From: an uncultured Chloroflexota bacterium
GTDB taxonomy: Bacteria > Chloroflexota > Anaerolineae > Aggregatilineales > Phototrophicaceae
DNA length: 53,483 nucleotides
Direction: 5' to 3'
Assembly (NCBI GenBank): GCA_903864435.1
Contig: CAIPFY010000190.1
Span: 1 to 53,483, forward strand
This document shows positions 5,014-6,128 of the stretch, piece by piece (the stretch's first letter is position 1; every line of letters starts with the position of its first letter). Under the pieces are notes generated by a model. That model searched no databases, was not told the origin of the DNA, and saw nothing but the letters and a program-made list of their open reading frames with translations. The position numbers were made by a program, and so were the translations under genes.

Positions 5014-5085
5014 GGCGACGTGGCCAAGTGGTAAGGCAAGGCTCTGCAAAAGCCTGATGCGCCGGTTCAAATCCGGCCGTCGCCT
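5014..5085 (+). tRNA. tRNA-Cys (anticodon GCA)
   Basis: Acceptor GGCGACG/CGTCGCC, anticodon stem AGGCT/AGCCT with loop CTGCAAA, T-arm CCGGTTCAAATCCGG, U discriminator. Confidence 0.93.
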
Positions 5086-5118
5086 CAAAAAAGGTGAGTT
5101 CACACTCACCTTTTTGAG
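5084..5118. terminator. Near-symmetric (bidirectional) intrinsic terminator after tRNA-Cys
   Basis: CTCAAAAAAGGTGAG-TTCACA-CTCACCTTTTTGAG. Confidence 0.85.
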
Positions 5119-5179
5119 TCCATGCAGACCAATTTTGCAGTCCCGCAAGATTGGGGACTTTACAAAGTTATAAAACGGC

Positions 5180-5220
5180 GTATGATCGTTTTTGTGGGGT
5201 GCAAAGACCCCACACGTTTT
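5180..5220 (+). terminator. Terminator/attenuator-like hairpin upstream of the structured leader
   Basis: TGTGGGGT-gcaaag-ACCCCACA followed by CGTTTTG. Confidence 0.45.
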
Positions 5221-5258
5221 GTATAGATAAGGCAAAGAAAGAGATCATGACCGAGGGT

Positions 5259-5464
5259 GGCAGTATTCACAAGGAACAGCCGCACTTAGCTGGCGGCGAT
5301 AACGCACCCCGGAGCTAACCTCCTCCCGCAAAAATGCGCCACGAGGTAACGCTCCCCGCGTTACCGCCGCCTCAAGTGGTGTTGTTCCACACGCAGAGAC
5401 AACTGAATAACGACTTTTCCGGTTGATTCGTGTGGGCATTTCCGATACATCGGTGATGTCTGCC
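5259..5464 (+). ncRNA. Candidate structured 5' leader / cis-regulatory RNA upstream of DUF1003 gene (unassigned class)
   Basis: Nested pairing: GGCAG(5259-5263)/CTGCC(5460-5464), TCAC(5267-5270)/GTGA(5453-5456), GGAA(5273-5276)/TTCC(5440-5443), GCCGC/GCGGC, GGAG/CTCC, CGCA-AAAA-TGCG(5327-5338), GGTAACGC/GCGTTACC(5345-5365), CCACACG(5387-5393)/CGTGTGG(5429-5435). RBS and ATG at 5480-5492. Confidence 0.5.
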
Positions 5465-5489
5465 CCTAGCAAATGCTATGGAGGACAGA

Positions 5490-6128
5490 ATGTACAACGA
5501 TCTGCTGCTGAACCGTATTGTGGCTGCGGCACCTATTGACGACGCTGATGAGCGCGTTCAGGAACTCATTGACGAAATCGAAGAACTCAAGAGTCTTCTC
5601 AGCCCGGAAGCGCAGGCGCTGATTAGCGATCTGCGTCCGCGCATCGTCACCGACGATGTGTACGAGGAGATGGACGAACGCTCATCGCTGGGCGAACGGA
5701 TGGCGGACAAGCTTTCCACGTTGGCCGGTAGCTGGCGCTTCATCATCTTTTTCTGTATTTTGATGGCGGTGTGGATCAGCATTAACGCCTACATGGGCGC
5801 GGAAGCCTTCGACCCGTTCCCGTTCATTCTGCTCAACCTCGCGCTTAGTACGCTGGCCGCGCTGCAAGCGCCGGTCATTTTGATGTCGCAAAACCGTCAG
5901 GCGGCGAAAGATCGGGCGGTCGCGCAGAATGATTATCAAGTCAACCTGAAAAACGAAGTGGAAATCGCTGACCTGCACCGCAAGATTGACACGCTCACCG
6001 ACGCGCTGACCATGCAGACCCGGCTGGTGAACGCGCTGGTGGAAGCCCGCCGCAAAGAACTGAGCGCCACTGTGCGGGCGATGGAAAGCACCCGCATTCA
6101 TAATGGCAACGGCCTGACCGTCGAATAG
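5490..6128 (+). CDS. DUF1003 family membrane protein
   Basis: LAGSWRFIIFFCILMAVWISINAYMG...FDPFPFILLNLALSTLAALQAPVILMSQNRQAAKDR is the DUF1003 signature; RBS GGAGGA before ATG 5490. Confidence 0.9.
   Translation: MYNDLLLNRIVAAAPIDDADERVQELIDEIEELKSLLSPEAQALISDLRPRIVTDDVYEEMDERSSLGERMADKLSTLAGSWRFIIFFCILMAVWISINAYMGAEAFDPFPFILLNLALSTLAALQAPVILMSQNRQAAKDRAVAQNDYQVNLKNEVEIADLHRKIDTLTDALTMQTRLVNALVEARRKELSATVRAMESTRIHNGNGLTVE

Follow-up and report, generated by a model that had tools for sequence, protein, structure and literature searches.

The window analysed here, a 53,483-nt stretch of DNA, comes from the genome of an Aggregatilineales bacterium (Chloroflexota), in which a leader RNA is positioned 5′ of a DUF1003 membrane-protein gene (5490–6128; PF06210, E = 1.2e-38), the candidate regulated gene. 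This gene, its Shine-Dalgarno (SD) sequence GGAGGA at 5480–5485 and all leader features described below lie on the + strand, downstream of a tRNA-Cys at 5014–5086. Directly 3′ of the tRNA, the sequence AAAAAAGGTGAGTTCACACTCACCTTTTTT (5088–5117) is terminator-like and would separate the tRNA from the leader transcript. To our knowledge, DUF1003 is a widespread membrane family without a proven function. An AlphaFold model of the protein was of moderate confidence (pLDDT 71, pTM 0.34), and its comparison with the PDB gave no match below E = 0.001. A second DUF1003 protein of the genome is fused to a cyclic-nucleotide-binding domain (G000:C123:7564-7848; L159:978-1865:-).

The first-pass annotation had described the region before DUF1003 as a structured, multi-helix leader, and the folding energies place this structure well beyond chance: the fold of 5250–5490 has an energy of −97.2 kcal/mol compared with −73.1 ± 4.9 kcal/mol for 200 dinucleotide shuffles (z −4.9), and the fold of 5170–5480 reaches a z value of −6.5. 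That the leader was uncatalogued, as also proposed, agrees with an Rfam 15 scan at the gathering threshold, which assigned it no family and returned only tRNAs and chance matches, and with a cmscan of 5086–5500 at E up to 5, which gave chance matches only. The M-box model (RF00380) was unmatched in 5086–5500 (to E = 5) and in 18 mgtE loci of the family, and the leader showed no match to the Rfam model of the mgtA Mg sensor, an enterobacterial leader. A suspected resemblance to c-di-AMP (ydaO) riboswitches was not borne out, the ydaO model giving no match in the leader, and plasmid records gave no similar DNA. As far as found, the leader is a conserved RNA uncatalogued in Rfam and lacking a published name, a novelty bounded by the fact that published candidates absent from Rfam could include the motif.

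Scanning upstream of the leader revealed a sigma-70-like promoter, TTTACA-N16-TATGAT, at 5159–5186. A TTTACA-N16/17-TATNAT-like promoter recurs in nearly all of 47 related leaders, 52–67 nt before the ATG of a short upstream open reading frame (uORF), so the transcript should carry the whole leader. In most of these 47 leaders a hairpin, P0, whose sequence changes between leaders, is predicted directly 3′ of the −10 box; in the window it is TGTGGGGTGCAAAGACCCCACA (5193–5214), located where the transcript is predicted to begin. Judging by these sequence features, transcription very probably starts near 5193.

In the main fold, the closing helix P1 pairs GGAACAGC (5273–5280) with GTTGTTCC (5381–5388), the latter strand, referred to as P1′, being a candidate anti-SD sequence; the GGAA/TTCC helix described earlier is the core of P1. 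P2 is formed by CACTT (5283–5287) and AAGTG (5374–5378); it covaries in alignment A4, and its 5′ strand is of the UUACC type in other genera. P3 joins segment 1, GGCGGCGATAACGC (5292–5305), to segment 3, GCGTTACCGCCGCC (5358–5371). The P3b region (5318–5347; ACCTC at 5318–5322 with GAGGT at 5343–5347), which covaries in relatives, encloses the small CGCA/TGCG hairpin (5327–5338, with 5327–5330 pairing 5335–5338), while P5, the hairpin CCACACG/CGTGTGG (5387–5435, with 5387–5393 pairing 5429–5435), stands between P1′ and the SD and has similar counterparts in several relatives. Both hairpins had been recognised in the first-pass annotation. Its outermost closing helices, GGCAG/CTGCC and TCAC/GTGA, are absent from the minimum free energy structure of 5250–5490 and fall outside the covarying core, and its view that all helices were mutually compatible has to be given up: P5 and P1 share two bases, and the proposed 8-bp stem of GGTAACGC (5345–5352) with GCGTTACC (5358–5365), although present, uses bases that also lie within the P3 3′ strand, which makes it an alternative conformer in competition with P3.

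Covariation in homologous leaders had been proposed as the check on these helices, and it is present. The homologs were collected via DUF1003 protein searches, which yielded the 47 distinct leaders, all from Chloroflexota; nearly all of their records are named Anaerolineae, Aggregatilineales or Chloroflexi, and a few MAG titles differ. A sequence-only MAFFT alignment of 15 leaders, with the window excluded (A2), supports P1, P2, P3, P3b and P4, with 81.6% of cells paired versus 31–45% when partners are slid, 17 pairs in which both sides changed, and a covariation score that was reached by 0 of 500 shuffles. In a 40-leader alignment, which leans towards a covariance model, 31 of 39 pairs changed on both sides (174 cells versus 55.5 ± 8.6 when shuffled). 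The strongest covariation is seen in P3 and P4; for P3, helix 5 of the 40-leader alignment, changes on both sides affect 8 of 11 pairs and 94.7% of cells are paired. P1 varies less, with clear compensated cases such as GAACAG/CTGTTC versus GAACATAAGC/GCTTATGTTC, GCAGAAAC/GTTTCTGC and ACAGAAT/ATTCTGT. The covariance model R1, built from A2 without the window's sequence, matches the window with 46.1 bits (E = 1.3e-7, covariance-model E-values being rough), and over the 5.4-Mb genome this site was its sole match apart from its own antisense. The leader fold is therefore conserved and covarying on comparative evidence, drawn mostly from MAGs. Within a class-wide sample of 299 genomes, searched with R1 under strict filters, the RNA was present solely in families f1 and f8.

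A complete conserved junction was not found in every member. P4 is lacking in the window and, by alignment, in L008, L013, L015 and L016, which indicates that the three-way junction is dispensable. The window's member is a reduced version of the leader, having no P4, a weak SD for its uORF and a DUF1003 SD that is partly occluded by a local hairpin.

The uORF, overlooked in the earlier description together with the competing pairings and the mgtE/corA association, runs from ATG to TAA at 5247–5318 and encodes MTEGGSIHKEQPHLAGGDNAPRS in 23 codons. It forms the 5′ half of the structure, its second half providing the 5′ strands of P1, P2 and P3, the last of these in its final codons. An in-frame equivalent of about 18–30 codons occurs in all 47 leaders, with an ATG mostly accompanied by a Shine-Dalgarno-like GAAGG or similar, so that a short uORF overlapping the structure and keeping its frame, as expected for mgtL/corL-type working, is found throughout. 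The distance from ATG to the first Pro codon takes six values from 24 to 39 nt, all multiples of 3. Six distinct lengths imply at least five changes as a minimum, and on the DUF1003 protein tree at least 17 are required, a count that is approximate because support for the tree is weak and in-frame motifs partly guided the choice of ORFs. On the same tree, the promoter-to-ATG spacing underwent at least 30 changes, with residues modulo 3 distributed 14/16/13, i.e., in free drift.

Substitution rates at codon positions 1, 2 and 3 of the first part of the uORF are flat (0.335/0.346/0.346). Equal rates of this kind mean that the peptide is not visibly selected, and peptide-level selection was ruled out on this ground; what is conserved in the uORF is the frame and the RNA. 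Codon choice is also unusual, AGT accounting for 80 of 162 Ser codons (downstream genes, 59 of 411) and TTA for 29 of 65 Leu codons (downstream genes, 48 of 1173), which points to a constraint at the RNA level. The wobble A of a uORF Leu codon is kept though the residue varies, and this, along with the AGT-rich Ser codons, argues that nucleotides rather than residues are conserved. The first Pro codon is retained in all 42 non-redundant uORFs, 28 of which contain Pro-Pro, and Ser-Ser is common. At uORF codons 4–8 most relatives carry AGTAGT, conserved at the nucleotide level and with no pairing partner found; the window has a diverged GGTGGCAGT at this place (5256–5264). A GCCGCC/GGCGGC hairpin inside the uORF is 91.5% paired, with covariation little beyond chance.

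Just 5′ of the P3 3′ strand lies segment 2, GGTAACGC (5345–5352), a near-copy of the uORF segment, which enables segment 3 to pair either with the uORF or with the copy, the latter giving the anti-P3 hairpin. Across 40 leaders, this 2:3 hairpin scored 13.4 versus 2.9 ± 0.9 with the copy region shuffled, a value reached in 0 of 200 shuffles; individually, it was significant in 20 of the 40. Two candidate anti-SD sequences were identified. Duplexes of P1′ with the SD are more stable for matched than for mismatched species (−11.3 versus −10.0 kcal/mol; permutation p = 0.0006, relatedness not controlled). The second candidate, CCTCCTCC (5319–5326), directly follows the uORF stop, where CCTCC (CCUCC in the RNA) is found in 15 of 40 leaders versus 2.6 expected, and CCUCC-SD duplexes reach −11.9 versus −9.4 ± 0.4 kcal/mol when shuffled (0 of 200 shuffles). 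When the window is folded without the uORF (5319–5492), CCUCCUCC pairs with the GGAGGA SD. Modelled SD accessibility differs modestly between the two states (mean 0.37 versus 0.27), in a model that covers 11 nt beyond the uORF stop and thus hides CCUCC in some leaders. With competing pairings above chance and a small mean change in modelled accessibility, switching of the leader between two exclusive folds is plausible rather than proven.

Further insight comes from the genes behind the RNA. A second model, R2, applied to 98 genomes from the family and 154 from the order, typically found one copy per genome, almost always before a long DUF1003 gene. However, the RNA also precedes established types of Mg2+ transporter genes. 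In G024 (E = 3.5e-13) it stands, with the uORF MNASLNSSEQGPPLPGGNSAS, before mgtE, as it does in G357, where the contig begins inside the element and the uORF start falls outside the visible sequence; both mgtE genes encode a Mg2+ transporter with N, CBS and TM domains. In three genomes from three genera (G363, G364 and G036), RNA, DUF1003 and mgtE follow in series on one strand, mgtE coming directly after DUF1003 as an operon. The RNA with the uORF MNEDSSLNEQLPASPRGNIAPRR was found before corA in G057 (E 3e-4) and, more weakly, with the uORF MNEDSSSNEQAPPLPGGQDTQR in G052 (E 0.004 in a small search). A Mg2+ transporter gene downstream, as in mgtL/corL-type leaders, thus occurs in these genomes. 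Weak R2 matches in other genomes (E above 0.01) were taken as chance, the new loci checked being in or near unrelated coding regions. The window genome gave no MgtE match, its two CorA genes had no credible match to the leader RNA, and in the loci examined outside Chloroflexota no MgtE was found within 1.5 kb of DUF1003. As three Mg2+-related gene families stand behind one leader, Mg2+ status is the most likely signal, and DUF1003 may itself have a part in Mg2+ transport.

The covarying fold, the kept frame, the promoter, the above-chance alternative pairings and the association with three gene families, all observed computationally, are best accommodated by a translation-coupled leader for Mg2+-transport genes (DUF1003, mgtE and corA) in Aggregatilineales and neighbouring families of the order, a reading to which we give somewhat better than an even chance. 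Briefly, a transcript beginning near 5193 with its 5′ hairpin would be loaded with ribosomes at the uORF. When ribosomes fail to complete the uORF, P1–P3 would form and tie up P1′ and CCUCC, leaving the DUF1003 SD free for translation (ON). Reading through the uORF would open P1–P3, whereupon segment 3 would exchange the uORF for segment 2 and the freed P1′ and CCUCC could pair with the SD and lower translation (OFF). At low Mg2+, ribosomes may stall on the uORF or leave it early, at its acidic codon 3 or its E-Q and Pro-Pro codons, resulting in more transporter; an ON state upon non-reading would have the right sign for importers. The more specific proposal, that this is a lineage-specific, independently evolved class of Mg2+ leaders, in which a peptide-independent uORF acts as ribosome-transit sensor and a repeated-segment switch hides the SD of DUF1003, mgtE or corA, is held tentatively, at slightly less than an even chance. 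Against the translation-coupled reading stand the flat codon rates of the uORF, unlike those of a classical arrest peptide, the modest shift in SD accessibility, the limitation of individually significant anti-P3 hairpins to half of the leaders, the weak uORF SD and partly occluded DUF1003 SD of the window, the lack of a proven DUF1003 function, and the window genome itself, with neither an MgtE match nor a CorA gene credibly matched to the RNA.

The earlier suggestion of a new ion- or osmolyte-sensing leader is strongly encouraged in its ion part, since the same RNA precedes mgtE and corA; its implied ligand aptamer is unsupported, given the missing P4, and the uORF and competing pairings make a translation-coupled switch the likelier mechanism, in place of an aptamer for a metabolite or ion. 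A true riboswitch for Mg2+ or another ligand, in which a P1–P4 aptamer controls P1′ and the SD directly and the uORF is incidental or secondary, would nevertheless explain the compact covarying multi-helix junction closed by P1, the riboswitch-like sharing of P1′ with the anti-SD pairing and the Mg2+-transport genes downstream. We regard it as unlikely: besides the absence of P4 from several members, formation of P1 would correspond to ON, so that stabilisation of the fold by Mg2+ would increase an importer just when Mg2+ is plentiful, which is the wrong sign. Together these two points make a direct Mg2+ aptamer less likely, and a neutral uORF would hardly have held its frame over at least 17 length changes.

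The remaining alternatives keep a regulated leader with another output or cue. Instead of SD sequestration, uORF translation might govern Rho-dependent transcription termination, the arrangement known from Salmonella mgtA/corA. This would follow the nearest mechanistic precedents (PMC11552253; the mycobacterial M-box, PMC12810186), and many leaders have a C-rich stretch after the uORF stop. This richness gives no support for a rut site, the C-over-G excess (9.0) being no larger than in shuffled leaders (8.7 ± 1.9); what exceeds chance is the anti-SD complementarity, and the Rho reading appears quite improbable. Still lower stands attenuation by an amino acid such as Pro or Ser, or nascent-peptide arrest sensing a cue other than Mg2+, which we consider very unlikely: the invariant first Pro and the frequent Pro-Pro and Ser-Ser are what it would predict, but there is no single-residue run, codon-level purifying selection was not detected, the biased Ser codons and kept Leu wobble A mark nucleotides as the conserved entity, and the regulated genes are Mg2+ transporters rather than amino-acid genes. 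That a protein acting in trans (a translation factor, for instance, or DUF1003 itself) binds the leader and chooses between folds would give the unpaired, conserved AGUAGU near the uORF start a role; with no candidate protein and this motif missing or altered in the window, the idea is highly improbable.

Among known systems, the mgtL/corL leaders of Salmonella and E. coli come closest to the translation-coupled leader proposed here. In these, efficient uORF translation at high Mg2+ represses mgtA/corA (PMC11552253), and at low Mg2+ ribosomes drop off on acidic and Pro codons (PMC11282234). Both systems have a uORF with Pro and acidic codons that overlaps 5′ strands and a Mg2+ transporter downstream, and the two exclusive folds of mgtL/corL have a putative counterpart in the competing pairings described here, whereas the Chloroflexota leader shows no match to the Rfam mgtA sensor, folds as P1–P3 with a repeated segment, stands before DUF1003 and mgtE genes and has a candidate anti-SD output rather than Rho. 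By analogy, the best reading is that the leader works like mgtL/corL though unrelated in sequence.

Other leader classes share some aspects. Like the Chloroflexota leader, the M-box (ykoK leader) precedes Mg2+ transport genes including mgtE, but it was not matched here, and we know of no uORF embedded in its aptamer. The mgtE motif SRC-65-1, likewise an unvalidated structured RNA before mgtE, is reported solely in Thioalkalivibrio, where a large P4 stem holds SD and AUG at its base; the part of the source describing it mentions no uORF, and it is set apart from the present leader by this description rather than by alignment (PMC11109978). The mycobacterial pe20 M-box likewise combines a Mg2+ leader, a conserved uORF (rv1805A) and a translational platform, but there the uORF lies 3′ of a canonical aptamer as its target, whereas the Chloroflexota uORF is a structural part (PMC12810186). 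In trp/his-type attenuators, too, segment 3 pairs either with segment 1, in the leader ORF, or with segment 2; the Chloroflexota leader differs in having no visible intrinsic terminator between fold and gene and no run of one codon. As the literature consulted describes leader uORFs with exclusive folds for Mg2+ control mainly in enterobacteria, a sequence-unrelated Chloroflexota leader of this kind would, if true, represent convergent evolution of ribosome-based Mg2+ sensing. It offers the first functional handle found for the DUF1003 family, which the transit-sensor reading, if true, would also mark as Mg2+-homeostasis proteins, and a clean test case of a uORF that has kept its frame but not its peptide.

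Aside from the leader itself, two kinds of ORF were noted near the same genes. Genus g13 (L169, L170, L171) carries similar uORFs, e.g., MSPDSSTNTDESTPRLASGGLGA, before mgtE with a marginal RNA match, and the further similar uORFs MDVDSSHPKLLADVPVLPR and MDADSQPPLALPALLRLIP occur among L169–L171 and L174 and L175, the latter two before a second mgtE type; with little or no RNA match at these loci, the uORF may predate or have outspread the fold. In at least 14 genomes (L018, L047, L051, L058, L131, L132, L134, L138, L139, L140, L145, L146, L147, L152), the RNA leader is preceded on its own strand by a hyper-acidic ORF of 70–125 aa, and such an ORF also lies upstream of mgtE in L157 and L163–L165; such ORFs mostly contain 50–67% Asp+Glu, with 43–47% in L163–L165. 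In genus g19, where the RNA was not matched, it stands directly before mgtE. Poly-acidic chains destabilise ribosomes, so the hyper-acidic ORF may serve to buffer cations or as a related Mg2+ device.
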